DNA from: Pegea sp. RAD2-039
Taxonomy: Eukaryota; Chordata; Thaliacea; Salpida; Salpidae
Direction of reading: 5' to 3'
DNA: 64,000 bases
Assembly: GCA_034620365.1 (NCBI GenBank)
Contig: JAQGEQ010000003.1
Location: forward strand, 682,001 to 746,000
Shown here: positions 8,586 to 51,770 of the stretch, one piece after another
Position numbering within the stretch: position 1 is the stretch's first letter
Layout: every line of letters begins with the position of its first letter
Translations under genes and position numbers: made by a program
The notes under the pieces: model-generated
Seen by the model: the letters and a program-made list of their open reading frames with translations, nothing else
The model's database searches: none
Told to the model about the DNA's origin: nothing

Positions 8586-8663
8586 TTCAAAAAATCTCAG
8601 GTTTGAAACTGAGATTAACAGATATTGAATTTGATCTTAGTTCAAAGAGCCGAGAAGCGATAA
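8586..8663 (-). ncRNA. RNU2: U2 snRNA, 5' fragment (truncated copy 1)
   Basis: The minus strand from about 8663 begins ATCGCTTCTCGG, the invariant 5' end of U2. It continues through AAGATCAA (the U2/U6 helix I strand), a changed branch-site recognition region (TCAATA where U2 normally has GTAGTA) and a stem-loop IIa-like hairpin. It then jumps to a T-run resembling an Sm site (ATTTTTTGA). Stem-loops IIb, III and IV are absent. It lies about 240 nt downstream of a U5 copy in the same orientation. This is almost certainly a pseudogene; its value is as a relative of the full-length copy at 20.1-20.3 kb. Confidence 0.85.
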
Positions 8664-8903
8664 CTTTGTTTGTTATTCCACGATGCTATATTTGCTATGA
8701 AAATTTGTACAGTTTAAAATTTTTTTTTATATTCATTACAAAGAAACTGTTATCATTAGAATAATAAGTGATAAAATATATTTGGTATAAAGTTTTATTT
8801 AGGTATTTGTAACTCTTTAGCAAACGCAGCATTATTACGTTAACACGATATTAACAATCGTGTATTTCGCGCGTCTTGCGTAACCTAGTATTGAAGTAAA
8901 AGA

Positions 8904-9030
8904 AGACCCGCGCCGAATAGCTACAGGTCCAGCAAAAAACTAATTAAGACTCATTGTATTGCCCCAATCCACGGAAATCTTTAGTAAAAGGCGAAAGATT
9001 CATTCGTGAACTGAACTGAGGCCAGAGTAA
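8904..9030 (-). ncRNA. RNU5: U5 snRNA (copy 1)
   Basis: Spliceosomal U5 RNA, which aligns the two exons through loop I. The minus strand begins TTACTCTGG and carries the hallmark block AATCTTTCGCC-TTTTACTAAAG-ATTTCCGTGG, in which the two stem arms enclose the invariant loop GCCTTTTAC. GAGTCTTAA, an Sm site AGTTTTTTG and a terminal stem-loop (GACC/GGTC arms) follow. Length of about 127 nt is close to the usual 116. No structural defect is seen. It differs from copy 2 at two positions only, whereas the spacers differ by roughly 10% plus indels, so it looks functional. Confidence 0.95.
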
Positions 9031-9089
9031 CTAAGTGTGACATTTCATCGGGTTATATGCAGCGTTCTAAGTTTGGTATTTGTGGGTGA

Positions 9090-9097
9090 TGACGTCA
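9090..9097 (-). promoter_or_regulatory. TGACGTCA (CRE/ATF-type) palindrome upstream of U5 copy 1
   Basis: A perfect 8-bp ATF/CREB-type palindrome about 60 nt upstream of the U5 5' end. It is retained at the same distance in copy 2 (20716-20723). snRNA genes carry their proximal element near this distance, so a promoter role is plausible; it is inferred from position and conservation only. Confidence 0.45.
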
Positions 9098-9304
9098 ATT
9101 TTGATGATAAGAATTACAAGCTCTTTCAAACACAACGTATTTTATTAAAAGAACTATACATTTGAAAGAGAATTCTTAAAATAAATTATCTTTTTGTTCG
9201 ACTAATTTTAGATGAATAGAATTTAGATCAACTCTTTTTTAATGTTTTTAGTCGTAAAAATTGATAAGCTTAAAAAATAAAAGGTTTACAAAATAAAAAC
9301 TTGT

Positions 9305-15636: not shown

Positions 15637-18190
15637 TATTTATTTATTCATTTCAATAAATGCGAAGGAGGGTGCCTGAAAAGAGCACCTCTCGCTAACA
15701 CACATTCTCACAAATAATATCTATTTAGCCAAAAATACAGAAAGTAAAAGATGTAACACATGGTATTTCGATATCACTCAAAGCCTATAACAGTGAACAA
15801 TTACATAGAATGTTAATAATGTAAGAAAGAAAAAAAATCACAGTTTAGAAATGACAATGTTGGCAATATTATAACGGTTCAACCTCTGCTTGAACAATGC
15901 GACTGACTTCGATATGGCAATGTCTGATGGCAGCTGATTCCATGTATTAATTGTACGGTATGAGAAAAAATTTGCTCTGACCAATGTACTAGGTGATAAA
16001 GGATTATTTAGGTGTAATGGGTGTCGTCTTAGCTGATATAACTTGAAAGAATGACTAATAGAAAAGAAATCATCAAACTGAATGTCAATTAAATTGTGGA
16101 TAATTTTAAGAATAAGAATTAAGTTGTATTTAATCCGTCGGATTTCCAAAGTATCTAAATTGAAGAAACTGAGACGATGTTTATAAATATCATATTTAAT
16201 ATTAAGTTTCCTACATACTAATCTTGTAAATGTGGCCTGAACAGATTCGATCTTTTTGATATCACTAACTTCATATGGCATTCATGCACTAACATTGTAT
16301 TCTAGAATTGGACGTACGTACAATTTGAAAAGATTGACGGTCTTTGAAAAGGGTCTTTATAATAAGGAAGACAAGGTTGATTGATTTTCCAAAGATTTTG
16401 GAAACATAATTGCGCCATTTAAAGTCAGATGGTAGAGTAATGCCAAGGTCTAGGACCGAAGATACTCGTTGAATAATAAATCTATTGATGGAGTATTGGT
16501 TCAAGCAATTTACAGCTTGTTTACGAAAAAAGTGTAAAAGTACAGACTTCGTGGGCTGGATTCTGAGCTGCCAATTCGCAGACCAGTCTTCTACAGTGTG
16601 CAGTGCAGTTTGAAGTTTTGAAGGATTACAGGATAATAGCTTGATATCATCTGCATACACAAACACTCTGACATCATCTACTGCTACTAATCTTCTGATG
16701 AGGTCTTCCATGAAAATTAAAAAGAGAAGGGGACCCAGAACAGAACCCTGAGGAACACCACTAGTGATTTGACTAGAAGTAGATAAAATTCTTTCTACAC
16801 GAGTTTGTTGGGATCTACCTGTAAAGTAATCTTCAATTCACTGTAAGATAAAGCTGTTGATTTTTAAGTTTTTCAATACAGTAACGAGCTTAGTGTGTGG
16901 GACAGAATCAAACGCCTTAGCAAAGTCGAGATATATGATGTCACAGAGAGTGTTACTTTCATAATGGGCTGTAAGCTCATTAAGAAAAGTGAGATGTTGA
17001 GTTAGGGAAGATCTTCGTTTCACAAAGCCATGTTGGACATCAGATATTAGATGGTGCTCCATCAAATGACTGGTCATATGATTGTGAATGATATGCTCTT
17101 GAGTTCTGCAGATAACTGAAGTCAGCGAAACTGGTCTCTAGTTAAGTGCGGTGGTTCTGGGACCCTTCTTATGAATTGGAGTAATAATAGCTTTCTTTCA
17201 AATTTGTGGAACTCTTCCTCGCTTCAGAGTCATGCTAAAGAAAAGCGATAAAGGTAATGATAAATATGAAGTAGTTTTTCTTAAAAACAAAGCTGGGATC
17301 TGATCTGGGGTGTTAGAAACTGATGATTTTAAAGAAGAAATAGCCTTAGATACCATATTGACCGTTATGTCAAGATCTACCATCTCAGAAACATTTGTAA
17401 GAATGTCGGAGTAGGAAAGAGAAGGAGTATTGCCATCATCGGTTATAAGAACGCTATTAAATTGATTGTTTAGCAACTCAGTTTTATTTTCTGTTTCCAT
17501 CTCAAGCTGGTCACTGTTATCAATTAAGGGAGGTATTTGAGATCTCGCCTTAAGCTTGCGATTTATGAAACCAAAAAACGTTTTCTTGCTAGGTAAAAGA
17601 TAAAACTGCACTTTCTCTTCCCAAATAGAAATTAGAAATAGATTTCTTGTAAACTACAAAGATTTTTGTACAGAGATTTGATGGAAGGGTCTGTTTTAGT
17701 TTGTTTGTATAGGAGGTTTTTTTAAATGTTGTAAATTCTTTAATTTTTTGGGCAAATGTGGTTTTTTGTTGGCTCTATAGAAAGGTATGAAGTTTTTGAT
17801 TGACTCTTTAACGATGTTAGTAAACTTTGAGTAAATAATATTGATGTCTTCGGAAGAGTTGAAAACAGAAATCCAGTCAATATCTGATAGAACCTTGTTA
17901 ATACCGTTACAATTTCCACAGTAAAAATTCCTTTTGCCTGAAGTTTTAACGTTCATTAAAAAAGTTTGGTAGAGTTTGAATTCAATCATATTGTGATCGC
18001 ATGTTAAAGCAAAAGGTTCTTTTTGATCAACTTAGATAATGTTCTCGGGTTTTGATGTGATAAGAAGGTCCAAAGTAATATGGTGAATATGGTCCAAATA
18101 TGGTGAAGTGTAAATGTGATCTGAGGTATAAAGTCGAGATCTACCAGCAAAATGACATTACTGATCGAGAACCCCAATACGTCAGCTCAA
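15637..18190 (-). mobile_element. LINE family 1, copy B (endonuclease end plus RT)
   Basis: The longest family-1 copy. The 3' end is at about 15637 (ATTT-rich tail, then the shared 3' UTR to about 15720). Protein pieces on the minus strand are 16281-15838 (C-terminal region), 16711-16289 (VFVYADDIKL), 17077-16838 (LDFAKAFDSVPH), 17611-17198 (linker and N-terminal RT) and 17989-17696. The 5'-most part reads LDLLITSKPENI and then CDHNMIEFKL, the C-terminal part of an APE-type endonuclease in which SDH is usual. Frameshifts and stops separate the pieces, so it is inactive. Against copy A it is more diverged, hence probably older. Confidence 0.88.
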
Positions 18191-19840: not shown

Positions 19841-20120
19841 ATCAGTATATTCAATTTTAATCAAATTCGAACAATCTCGGCAGCGAGAAATGCAATACAT
19901 CCCAAGAAAAAAATTAAATCGCTTTATCAAGTCCGCTACCAACTAACAAATCACTACCAACAATATTTCCACTTTTGTCCTAGAAAAATGTCATTCGTTT
20001 CAGTTTGCTTGTTTGAAGTTTTATGGCAGTTTAATAATACATAAAATACATTGTAAGATTATTCGTGATCTTTTATTTGGTCTATCATGCTACAGATAGT
20101 GACCCCAATAGGGAGCATTG

Positions 20121-20307
20121 TGGGTCGTTCCCGGAGGTACTGCAATACCGGGCCGACCCATGATCAGAGGTGAGCAAGCTCTCTGTGCTGATCTCATTTC
20201 AAAAACTCATTCAGACATTGGAGTAGGCCACTGGCCTACCTCTCAGGTTTGAAACTGAGATCAACAGATATTGCATTTGATCTTTGCTCAAAGAGCCGAG
20301 AAGCGAT
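20121..20307 (-). ncRNA. RNU2: U2 snRNA, full length, variant branch-site recognition sequence (copy 2)
   Basis: Spliceosomal U2 RNA, which pairs with the intron branch site and with U6. Length 187 nt (human 188). The minus strand starts ATCGCTTCTCGG. Stem-loop I is intact (GCTC/GAGC arms), then AAGATCAA (helix I with U6), then ATGCAATATCTG where U2 has GTGTAGTATCTG. Stem-loop IIa (CTCAG/CTGAG), IIb (GTAGGCC/GGCCTAC), the Sm site AGTTTTTGA (20199-20207), stem-loop III (GATCAG/CTGATC) and stem-loop IV follow. Stem-loop IV keeps the diagnostic GGTATTGCAGTACCT between TGGGTCG and CGACCCA arms. Every stem pairs, so it does not look like a random pseudogene, yet the normally invariant GTAGTA reads GCAATA. 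It lies about 220 nt downstream of U5 copy 2 on the same strand. Confidence 0.92.
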
Positions 20308-20529
20308 AACTCTGTTTGTTATTCCACGATGCTATATTTGTACATTTAAAAATTTTTTTTATAGATTGCAAAGAAAACTATTATCATTAGAATAATAAGT
20401 GATAAAAATATATTTGGTATAAAGTTTTATTCAGGTATATCACTCTCTAGCAAACGCAGCATTACGTTAACACGATATTAACAAACGTGTAACTCAGTAT
20501 CTTGCGCGTGCTTATATTGAAGTAAAAGA

Positions 20530-20656
20530 AGACCCGCGCCGAATAGCTACAGGTCCAGCAAAAAACTAATTAAGACTCATTGTTTTGCCCCAATCCACGG
20601 AAATCTTTAGTAAAAGGCGAAAGATTCATTTGTGAACTGAACTGAGGCCAGAGTAA
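20530..20656 (-). ncRNA. RNU5: U5 snRNA (copy 2)
   Basis: Same structure as copy 1: TTACTCTGG start, the invariant GCCTTTTAC loop, AGTTTTTTG Sm site and 3' terminal stem. It differs from copy 1 at only two of about 127 positions. The immediate 5' flank differs more strongly. Likely functional. Confidence 0.95.
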
Positions 20657-20812
20657 CTTCAAGCGATATTTCATCGGCTTATATGCAGCGCTCTAAGTTT
20701 GGTATTTGTGGGTGATGACGTCAATTTTGATGATAAGATTTACAAGCTCTTTTAAACACAACATTTTTGATTAAAAGAACTATACATTTAAAAGAGAATT
20801 CTTAAAATTTTT

Positions 20813-22412
20813 TTATTTTTTATTTGACTTATCTTATATACAAAATATAAAACTTTTGAAAGATTACATTATTATCAAAGTAAAAAAAAAGTCTTAATAT
20901 ATTACTAATTAAGTAAATTTGTTTCAGATTTTGTTTTATTACTCTTATGTTTTGCTGTGTTTTTCGTAGAATTTTTTGAAGAATTTCATTTTAAATCAGT
21001 CACTTACAATTAACTTTAGGTAAAGTTTAGAAAAAAACGTTTTTATTTACATAATTGTATTAAGCTGTAATGACATTTTACAATGCACTTTCTTTTTTGG
21101 AAATAGTTTTCAAAACAATTCAATTCGTAAACTATTTTTTGAAAACTCTGTCATAGTGATGCTAAATGCATTTAAATTTTGAAGTAAACTTAAATATAAA
21201 CTTAAAAGAAGATCATTCCAACTGAGTAATAGTTTGGCTGGTCAAAACTAAAAGTCACTAAAAATGTTGAAAATCTTAACAACTTTATTTTTTTCACTAA
21301 ATCTATATTTTTTAGCTTATATTTGTCCTTATTACCAGTCTATTGATTATAATACATTATTAGATGTCATACTTATTACAGATTTTGTCACATATTTGTG
21401 CATAGTTAATTATATATTAGTTTATATATATCTAATAATTTCGTTAATGCTTTGAATTTTTTAGATCTGCCATGATTCATTTTTTATGATATTTAACGAA
21501 ACTTTTTGATAAAATGGTAAACATCGAATAAGCAAATGAACAAAATAAAAATCTATTAGCTAGCTCTTAAATAAGTAGTGATCTGATTCATTAGCAAACT
21601 TAGCTCAATTACGATATTACACAGAATCTTTGTGATAAAAGCTACCTTGAATAAGTTAGCATTATATTTTGAAAACATTTAAGCTGGTATCTAAATAATG
21701 CTCAATACAAGAAAACTTGTCTTATATGAATTTTAATAATTGGTGGTAAAGATTTATCTACCCTATATATGTTACCTAAATAAACGTTTATTAACTTCTA
21801 CAAAATAGCTAATATTAATGACAATAATTATGATTTGAATTTTAAAAGTTGTCTCTAGTATTCTCTCAAAAAAGTTTATAGATATTTCAGTAAAAGTAAT
21901 TTTAAGTATCATCATAACATTTTCAAATTCAGAGTTCTGCCTTGAATTTTTGCTAAATTTAGCAATGAACTTCTTTTTAAAGTTTTTAAGTAAAAAATAT
22001 ATATAAAGTTTATAGATTTCACTCTGTTGAAAAACTTGATTGCTTAAAAAAACATTATTACAGCTTACTCTGATTTTACAAACAAAAATCTATTTACGCC
22101 AAATTAGTACTTATCGAAATTGTCATGACAATTTCTCAAGCATATTGGTTATTTTCTACCTTGGTTATTTTTTCATTATTATTAAGATAAAAAATGATAT
22201 TTTTCCCTGCAAACTCGAAAAAAAACTTTATAATAAAGATAATTAACTTTTAGTAACTTCTTAAAGGTTTGTTGTATTAGTTTATAAATGGTTAATTGGT
22301 TAGTATTACTAACTAATTTAAGTAAATATTTCAGAAACTTGGCAAGTAAATATAAATTTTAATCAGGGTAGTTTTGCTCTGTGAAGAAGCTATTTTACTC
22401 ACAAATTGATTT
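20813..22412. other. Intergenic DNA upstream of LRRIQ3
   Basis: About 1.6 kb, very AT-rich, without a recognised feature. A 63-codon frame at 21264 is leucine/isoleucine/tyrosine-rich and typical of chance frames in AT-rich DNA. Confidence 0.5.
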
Positions 22413-47600: not shown

Positions 47601-48632
47601 TTTCTTTAACTTTTTAAATTATGTGTTTATACATTAACTTTTCAAACTATTTTTAAAAACATGAAACTTTGAAATTGTCGTATTTCAACTTTTCATTTTA
47701 GTTAAATGAGTTTTGAGTGACAATTGTTGAACTATAAGAAAATATAAGTAAGTTGAAATATTGAAATTTTTCTAGAAATTCTCGGTTTTGATTCTACAAA
47801 TTTGGTATTATCAAAATCATCTTTGTAGACAATTTGAATTTTCTACAATATTGCTATCTTTCATAGTTTACAAAGTAAAGACTGATCCAAAACAAGATTT
47901 TGTACTTTTTTCAAATATTAAGATTTTCTTATATTCAAATTCAATACAGACTTTTAAATTTCGATTATTTTTGAGAGTAATAAATTAATTCTACAGATTA
48001 GTAAACTTTCTACCGTAAGGATAAAAGCTATTCATAAGCTTTATACCGCAACCAGCTTTTGTTATTCCGAAACAGCAGTTTACAGTTAGAATATTTCACT
48101 CAATTTTCTAGATAACAATAAAATTCAAAAAATGTCAAATTTTTAATTTAAACCTAGTTCAGCTCAAAACAGTAAGTCACACAAAGTTGTGTTAGTAATA
48201 TTCTCTATCTAATTATTCTTTTTATATTTGTTACAGCAAAAATACATCTAAAACCAACTAACTCAACTATTTATTTGGGCCAATCATTCTTAACTTTGGT
48301 TGATTGCTCTTCAGGTATCAGTATTGTGAATTGCATTTTTAACCAAAAAGAGATTGAAGCTTTCATCATCATAACTGTAACTAATATACTAAGAGTTTTA
48401 GAAAATGGTGGACACGTTCACAGAGGTTGACAAAATTTATTTTCTTTATGAATCTGTTGTTAAATTTTATTTTAGTTTTTCTTAATTTTTTTTGCAACAG
48501 TTTTTTATTGTAATCATAATGCATTTTTGTTTTTTTCTTTAAAAATTTGAACGTTTCAAACAAAGCGTTTGTTGTGTAAACGAAATCAATTAAAAACCAT
48601 TTTTATGTATTCAATATCGGAAATTAGCGAAA
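44689..48632. other. Gene-free DNA upstream of the Polycomb gene
   Basis: About 3.9 kb, extremely AT-rich around 44.8-46.6 kb. Less AT-rich patches at 46.61-46.77 and 47.22-47.33 kb could be 5' non-coding exons or promoter DNA of the Polycomb gene, but no splice-consistent exon was established. Confidence 0.4.
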
Positions 48633-49290
48633 TTGTACATACGTCCAATTCTTGAATACAATGTCAGTACATGGATGCTATATCAAGTTAGTGATATCAA
48701 AAAATCAAATCTGTTTACGCAACATTAACGAGATTGTTATGTAAAAAGTTTAATATTAAATACGATAGTTATAGGCTATCTATTTACTAAATAAATTCGA
48801 CGGATTAAATTCGAAGTAATTCTTATTTTCAAAATTATCTACAATCTAATTGACCAAAAATTCGATGATTTCTTTTCCATTAGTCCTTCCCTCAAGTCAT
48901 ATCAGCTCAGACGACACACATTACATCTTAATAAGCCTATATCACCTGGTACATTGGTCAGAGCAAATTTTTTCTCATTCCGCACAATCAGTACTTGGAA
49001 CCAGCTGCCATCAGACATTGTCATGTCAGTATCACTCATGTTGTTCAAAAAGAAGTTGAACCGTTATAATATTGCCATTTCCAAATTGTGATTGTTTTCC
49101 TTTCTTATATTATTAATATTCTATGTAATTGTTCACTGTTATATGCTTTGAGGACTACCGAAATGCCATGTGTTACATCTTTTACTTTCTATATTTTTGA
49201 CTAAATAGATGTTATTTGTGAGAATGTGTGTTAGCGAGAGGTACTCTCTTCAGGTACCCTCCTTCGCATTCATTGTAATAAACAAATACT
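48633..49290 (+). mobile_element. LINE family 1, copy C (3' fragment)
   Basis: Severely 5'-truncated copy. It starts at sequence matching about 2313 of copy A (CGTCCAATTCTTGAATAC) and continues through the C-terminal region with internal deletions, reaching SFRTISTWNQLPSDI by about 49015. It then runs through the shared 3' UTR to about 49290. The 3' hairpin has a paired change (GGTAC/GTACC instead of GGTGC/GCACC). Frames are broken; inactive. Confidence 0.85.
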
Positions 49291-50585: not shown

Positions 50586-51770
50586 TTAATAAGTTGAAGT
50601 ATCATCGTAATCCTCTTTGTCGAGATCTTCATCAAAGTCTTCATTGTTTAAGTCATCATCTGTAAACAAATCAAGATAATACATAAAAAGTAATTTACAA
50701 ATAAAAAATATAATTTTTACAAATGGCAATGAGTAGTTTCATAAGTTTGTTTTTACGTTCAGCATGATCAGCTTCCAATGACTCTTCATTATCTTCGTTT
50801 TGAAATCTTTGTTCAGCTGCATTGTCCTTATTTTCATGAAAATCACTCAAGCGTTTCTTATCAGCAGCTGGTTTCTTATCAGCAATTGGTGTTTTATCAG
50901 CAACTGGTGTTTCGTCAGCAACTGGTGTTTTATCAGCAACTGGTGTTTTATCAGCAACTGGTGTTTCGTCAGCAACTGGTGTTTTATCAGCAACTGGTGT
51001 TTTATCAGCGACTGGTGTTTCGTCAGCAACTGGTGTTTTATCAGCAACTGGTGTTTCGTCAGCAACTGGTGTTTCGTCAGCAACTGGTTTCTTATCAGCA
51101 ATTGGTGTTTTATCAGCAACTGGTGTTTTATCAGCGACTGGTGTTTCCTCAGCAACTGGTGTTTTATCAGCAACTGGTGTTTCGTCAGCAGCTGGTGTTT
51201 CGTCAGCAACTGGTGTTTCGTCAACAACTGGTGTTTTATCAGCAACTGGTGTTTCGTCAGCAACTGGTGTTTTATCAGCAACTGGTGTTTCGTCAGCAGC
51301 TGTTGTTTTATCAGCAACTGGTGTTTCGTCAACAACTGGTGTTTTATCAGCAACTGGTGTTTCGTCAGCAGCTGGTTTCTTATCAGCAACTGGTTTCTTA
51401 TCAGCAACTGGTTTCTTATCAGCAACTGAATGTGTTTTTTCATCATCAATAATTTTCATTAATTTAGCAAGAAGATTATTTTCTTTAGGAACATCATGAA
51501 CAATTTTTTTATCTTGCTCATCTTTTTCATTTTTAAGCTTCTTGGTTAAACTTTCATCTTTTATCTTGTTAATGGTTTTAACAGCTTCTTCATCAGGTTG
51601 ACCCAACACGTCAGCATTTCTAAAAATAAAAAAACAATTAATAAGAAATCAAATTAAAAACTGAACACTTACAACCAGCTAAGCTCATCTAGATAGGAAT
51701 CTACATTAGTAGGTGATGCTAAGACTGAATAGATACAAAATAATCCTAAAAGAATAGAAATCTTCATCAT
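50586..51770 (-). CDS. Secreted or ER-targeted protein with about 31 hexapeptide repeats
   Basis: Exons on the minus strand: 51770-51673, 51619-50721, 50659-50586; 1071 nt, 356 residues. The start is the first of two adjacent ATGs and opens a clear signal peptide (MMKISILLGLFCIYSVLA, cleavage before Ser/Pro). A charged Lys/Asp/Glu linker (about 33-97) is followed by about 31 tandem hexads of the form (T/K)-P-(V/A/I)-A-(D/E)-(E/K) from about 98 to 287. The C-terminal region is highly acidic (NEDFDEDLDKEDYDDTSTY). Family not recognised; composition resembles secreted structural, matrix or mucilage proteins and repetitive surface antigens. Charge alternates with the D-E and D-K forms of the repeat. 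No transmembrane anchor or KDEL-type signal is visible. Confidence 0.8.
50868..51425 (-). repeat. 18-bp minisatellite encoding the hexapeptide array
   Basis: About 31 units of 18 bp; consensus on the plus strand GCAACTGGTGTTTCGTCA or GCAACTGGTGTTTTATCA. The unit length is a multiple of three and the unit has no stop in several frames, so long open frames also exist in other frames and on the plus strand. These are by-products of the repeat, not extra genes. Higher-order runs of alternating TCG and TTA variants indicate expansion by slippage or unequal exchange. Confidence 0.95.

Follow-up and report, generated by a model that had tools for sequence, protein, structure and literature searches.

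A U2 snRNA copy with an altered branch-site recognition hexamer beside U5 genes in the salp Pegea sp.: probably a decaying pseudogene

Isoforms of spliceosomal snRNAs have been described in fly, mouse, planarian and human (PMC4291461, PMC6312358, PMC7328512, PMC5493778; excerpts of each). Human variant U1 genes were once taken for pseudogenes, carry a recognisable DSE, PSE and 3' box, and are transcribed (PMC5493778, excerpt). For U2, the human gene RNU2-2 carried a pseudogene annotation but turned out to be highly expressed, and a single change in its GUAGUA hexamer (n.35A) is linked to dominant disease, with yeast work cited for the dominant-negative effect (PMC12165836, excerpt). In the parts of the literature on U2 variants that were searched, no genomic U2 paralog was found whose hexamer carries a fixed change.

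The window (the whole stretch of 64,000 nt analysed, from one contig of Pegea sp. RAD2-039) contains a full-length U2 copy at 20 kb in which this hexamer is altered. Like metazoan snRNA pseudogenes (PMC5493778, excerpt), it is a diverged copy outside the functional set, with no recognisable PSE and a damaged 3' flank; it differs from them in that its stems are kept better than random placement gives, and in its linkage to intact U5 genes. With the expressed variants, namely human variant U1 (PMC5493778, PMC7328512; excerpts) and planarian U1C1/U1C2 (PMC6312358, excerpt), it has in common that it is a base-changed paralog with the fold conserved overall, and the planarian genes, too, are changed in their splice-site recognition sequence. 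The human variant U1 genes have a PSE and 3' box, whereas a PSE is missing from both U2 copies of the window. RNU2-2 is likewise a U2 paralog with known hexamer changes, but it is highly expressed and these are rare patient variants, not fixed as in the 20-kb U2 (PMC12165836, excerpt). Canonical U2 genes of the same genome have the same stems and U-run and differ from the 20-kb copy in hexamer, promoter and 3' flank. Our reading is that the 20-kb U2, a DNA-duplicated U2 snRNA gene beside a U5 gene, is a decaying pseudogene whose own PSE has been lost (probability about 0.86). Feature coordinates are collected in Table 1.

Table 1. Positions of the snRNA features in the window, and of the divergent U1 loci elsewhere in the assembly.
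Feature	Position	Strand	Basis
Full-length U2 snRNA-like sequence	20115..20307	minus	Rfam RF00004; compared with 16 canonical U2 copies
Branch-site recognition hexamer, GCAATA (canonical GTAGTA)	20269..20274	minus	comparison with canonical copies
Remnant of conserved U2 3' flank, 20 nt of which the first 12 remain	20095..20114	minus	comparison with 16 canonical copies
U2 copy truncated after its first 67 nt, hexamer TCAATA	8595..8661	minus	Rfam match extends to 8553
Intact U5 snRNA gene upstream of 20-kb U2	20535..20656	minus	Rfam RF00020, 79.7 bits
PSE of 20-kb U5 gene, CCCACAAATACCAAACTTAG, starting 56 nt upstream	20693..20712	minus	27.0 (leave-one-out, earlier matrix); among the 14/15 U5 at or above 18.0
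Intact U5 snRNA gene upstream of truncated U2	8909..9030	minus	Rfam RF00020, 83.4 bits
PSE of 8.6-kb U5 gene, same 20 letters CCCACAAATACCAAACTTAG	9067..9086	minus	27.0 (leave-one-out, earlier matrix)
Duplicated U5-spacer-U2 unit, copy A	20241..20836	minus	88% identical to 8595-9210 over 621 columns
Duplicated U5-spacer-U2 unit, copy B	8595..9210	minus	aligned to copy A
Divergent U1 loci	L074 (C40:371310), L089 (C39:1024117), L091 (C40:178115), L092 (C40:176281), L093 (C40:223617), L094 (C29:1081018)		

The variant U2 copies and the canonical U2 genes

Rfam RF00004 was run against the complete assembly (105.7 Mb, 387 contigs); 46 out of 13,294 candidates received a score, which makes all counts lower bounds. 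At least 19 matches were obtained: 16 full-length copies (146.9–150.5 bits), the 20-kb variant, a copy on contig C32 (52.9 bits) and the truncated copy at 8.6 kb (47.1 bits). A DNA search using the variant sequence returned the same 19 places and 14 weak opposite-strand stem matches (E = 0.78), and with it no further U2 was found on the contig of the window. The first-pass annotation, made from the window sequence, had proposed comparing the recognition hexamer across all U2 genes of the assembly; the standard GTAGTA was present in all 16 full-length copies elsewhere (at least 16 in the genome). Ten of these were identical to their consensus and the remaining six had 1–3 base differences, with a compensated pair change (G150A + C185T) in three copies. 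Such near-identical GTAGTA genes indicate an animal with an ordinary, homogenised U2 gene set, and intact paralogs of the kind expected alongside a pseudogene are therefore present.

The 20-kb copy scored 117.4 bits over model positions 1-192 (gathering score 46, E = 4.2e-23), which places it in the U2 family across the whole model. It was identical to the canonical consensus at 177 of 193 nt, with 16 substitutions (nt 23, 32, 35, 37, 46, 47, 77, 94, 98, 109, 114, 124, 183, 189, 191 and 192). Stems I–IV were retained, with 40 of 41 consensus pairs kept; the single lost pair was in stem I (G11-U23 to G-A). AAGATCAA was intact with its preceding base, nt 23, changed, and the U-run in GAGTTTTTG, which we take to be an Sm-type site, was by inspection unchanged and as in canonical U2. 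The U2 copy with paired stems and an Sm-type site that had been reported here is thus real. Its proposed extent (20121..20307) was right at the start of the RNA and 6 nt short at the other end, and the strand, minus, had gone unstated. Single-sequence minimum-energy folds, which are weak evidence, gave −65.2 kcal/mol without stem I for the 20-kb copy and −70.9 kcal/mol with stem I for canonical U2.

The reported hexamer change was likewise borne out: in place of the GUAGUA of functional U2, the copy reads GCAATA at 20274-20269 (minus strand), and the diagnostic strings within nt 30-50 are AAATGCAATATCTGTTGATC for the variant and AAGTGTAGTATCTGTTCTTC for canonical U2. The truncated 8.6-kb copy has CAATA in common with it but has also lost the first hexamer base. 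Changes at nt 32, 35, 37 and 47 were found in both copies, and nt 46 differed from canonical in both, with different bases; the four common changes are most simply older than the duplication, as had been proposed from the CAATA letters. Changes assignable to the time after duplication were nt 23 in the 20-kb copy and nt 21 and nt 34 in the 8.6-kb copy. Those at nt 23 and nt 21 each break a stem I pair, not the same one in the two copies, and nt 34 is a second hit to the hexamer. Within the 67 alignable nt, each copy kept 12 of 13 pairs; a stem mismatch in a second variant copy had, like standard GUAGUA genes elsewhere, been named beforehand as pointing to a pseudogene.

Promoter elements, 3' flanks and the duplicated U5-U2 unit

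Most snRNA genes in this genome are preceded by a PSE-like element, in most U2 CCCACAAACACTAARCTTTC, whose start lies 55–64 nt upstream. In canonical U2 it starts 57–58 nt upstream in all 15 copies with upstream DNA in the assembly, the 16th lying at a contig end. A PSE weight matrix was built with the variant U1 family left out of the training set, and scoring was leave-one-out; an earlier version of the matrix was also run. Scores were at least 21.4 for U2 (15/15), 18.0 for U5 (14/15; exception L032, −3.5), 9.3 for U1 (13/13) and 22.0 for U6 (11/12, from 12 of 15 U6 matches scored; exception L085, −4.8). Random 90-mers of the window had a median of −11.9, a 95th percentile of −0.5 and a 99th percentile of 5.5.

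No PSE was detected in the 90 nt upstream of the 20-kb U2 (20308..20397, minus strand; best score −15.2, matched by 72% of random window 90-mers) or upstream of the 8.6-kb U2 (best −4.2; 12.5% of random 90-mers as high). The earlier matrix gave −15.1 (62%) and −8.8 (24%), respectively. A scan of the complete spacer between U5 and the 20-kb U2 likewise revealed none (best −12.9 on its own strand, −10.2 on the opposite strand). Neither window U2 therefore has the element at the usual 55–64 nt. The 20 nt of 3' flank were scored by the number of letters that recur at the same position in another copy: all 16 canonical U2 scored 19–20 of 20, against 12 of 20 for the 20-kb U2, whose last 8 nt match no canonical copy, and 6 of 20 for the truncated one.

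Differences between the two U5-U2 units were counted by part. The U5 gene differed at 2/122 positions (1.6%), the U2 part at 4/67 (6%) and the pooled flank at 47/385 (12%; upstream of U5 16/121 and 8/59, spacer 23/205), the pool leaving out the 20 nt after U5 (0/20 differences). U5 was significantly less diverged than the flank (P = 0.00016), and relative to their flanks the two window U5 genes are under selection. The U2 part, although less diverged, was not significantly different from the flank (P = 0.21) and, at these few changes, not separable from U5 either (P = 0.19). The 33 nt directly upstream of U2 had a single difference between copies. The contig carries a third related U5 (L019, C15:220158), which by eye has the start of the spacer in common.

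Substitution pattern and competing readings

The first-pass annotation had offered two readings, a divergent paralog or a pseudogene whose stems had not yet decayed, and the evidence favours the second: both variant copies are without a PSE, and every full-length copy elsewhere has GTAGTA. Since the PSE is gone and the genome holds many normal U2 genes, the altered hexamer is most simply explained by decay. On this account a U2 gene would have been carried beside a U5 gene and would have lost its snRNA PSE; a number of changes, those at positions 2 and 4 of the hexamer among them, would have accumulated before duplication of the U5-U2 unit within the window, after which the 8.6-kb U2 would have been truncated and both U2 copies would have kept drifting. 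The GTAGTA genes elsewhere, near-identical and numbering at least 16, would make up the functional U2 pool. We infer that the 20-kb U2 is neither transcribed nor functional. The disease linked to RNU2-2 n.35 suggests that a silent hexamer-variant copy would be easier to keep than an expressed one. The expression of RNU2-2 despite its pseudogene label counts against the pseudogene reading, as it indicates that sequence-based annotation can err. As a pseudogene the copy is ordinary, and its use lies in the internal contrast of two selected U5 genes and two U2 copies not distinguishable from flank within the same duplicated units. Were it instead a working U2 whose branch-site pairing is altered, it would show a change rarely met in nature, in an RNA contact that ranks among the most conserved of the spliceosome.

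The placement of the substitutions was compared with random placement matched for mutational spectrum. Only 2 of the 16 changes in the 20-kb U2 fell in paired positions and one pair was broken, against 7.6 and 6.1 expected (P = 0.002 each; hypergeometric P = 0.009 for avoidance of paired positions; nt 1-124 alone 1/12, P = 0.025). This hints at past structural selection and is unexpected for a fully neutral copy, unless it was partly homogenised or selected during part of its history. A change-free run of 58 nt over the heavily paired 3' part (P = 0.04) would also fit homogenisation with canonical copies. Strongly conserved Rfam positions were changed in 6 of 16 cases (5.4 expected), so that conserved unpaired sites had no protection; nt 25-46 had 4 changes (1.7 expected, P = 0.075), a mild concentration. 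By direction, GC to AT accounted for 9 changes and AT to GC for 3, the other 4 being neither; the GC content of the window is 27%. It had been argued earlier that stems which differ from human and still pair indicate past selection. Pairing was confirmed and past selection has some statistical support (P = 0.002–0.009), for another reason: the human yardstick fails, since the 40 of 41 pairs are those of the animal's own canonical U2 and so few of the changes touch them.

This avoidance of paired positions bears on the idea that the 20-kb U2 descends from a formerly functional paralog with altered branch-site pairing, expressed and keeping its fold while the recognition region changed, which later lost its promoter and died. 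The sites changed in both copies (nt 32, 35, 37, 47 and site 46) are, moreover, all unpaired and in or beside the recognition region, as such a history would predict. Homogenisation with canonical copies, or chance among few changes, yields the same pattern, however, and conserved unpaired sites were not avoided; we consider this history unlikely. Somewhat less probable still is a U2 paralog with a selected fold that was used for branch sites complementary to GCAAUA and is either still in use through a non-PSE promoter or only recently dead.

We regard it as very improbable that the 20-kb U2 is a living variant, driven by an unconventional promoter or by U5 read-through and choosing branch sites complementary to GCAAUA. 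The pairs, the Sm-type site and the U6-pairing stretch are retained, and the near-identical 33 nt upstream could be read in its favour; against it stand the PSE-free spacer on its own strand, the loss of the last 8 of 20 nt of 3' flank, and a sister copy that is truncated and more damaged. Branch-site counts gave no clear enrichment either, in what is a weak test. An ab initio short-intron search of 338,500 letters (window and further loci, redundant) gave one candidate, so that no branch-site profile could be drawn. The intron-like pattern GTAAGT..X..TTTYAG was counted genome-wide, both strands summed, with the pattern read backwards as control, a comparison of little power throughout. With X = TTAGC, the complement of the variant, 88 occurrences were counted (61 in the control), nine listed hits being copies of one repeat on C283/C284. 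The canonical CTAAC was hardly raised (108 vs. 98), and CTTGA, which has the same letters as TTAGC but includes TTGA, itself usable as a canonical-type branch site, reached 157 vs. 69. TTAGC thus exceeded its own control, yet less so than CTTGA. An assembly or sequencing artefact is a negligible prospect, as the variant lies far inside a 1.2-Mb contig and the sister copy on that contig has the nt 32, 35, 37 and 47 changes in common together with its own flank divergence.

Other snRNA loci and surrounding sequence

Further snRNA copies in the assembly are probable pseudogenes: the U5 and U6 copies without a PSE noted above (L032, C49:164132; L085, C39:921691) and the 5'-truncated U2 at C32:1279466-1279615. 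Viral contigs were searched for AAGATCAANTGNANTATCTGTT; four stretches were obtained, all of them AAGATCAACTGAAGTATCTGTT, and by eye none had surrounding U2-like sequence.

Of the 24 window ORFs with at least 100 codons, 10 were scanned against Pfam: two matched reverse transcriptase, one a chromo domain and one short-repeat families, and six gave no match. Reverse-transcriptase element copies lie at 1131-2855, 15780-17490 and 48630-49288, one of them open over 553 codons from stop to stop. The copies at 1131-2855 and 15780-17490 are mutually inverted, about 83% identical, and lie within a few kilobases of the U5-U2 units. A short tandem repeat array at 50850-51442 is open in several frames on both strands.

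Among 19 U1 matches, six on three contigs form a divergent group (Table 1) with the 5' end AAACUUACUU instead of AUACUUACCU. Five of the six have a PSE at −56 scoring at least 13.1, and the remaining one scores 2.2. A C to U change opposite 5' splice site position −1 has been reported in stem-cell-enriched U1 variants of planarians (PMC6312358, excerpt), and the divergent group has the same C to U. Unlike the 20-kb U2, this group looks like a living variant family.
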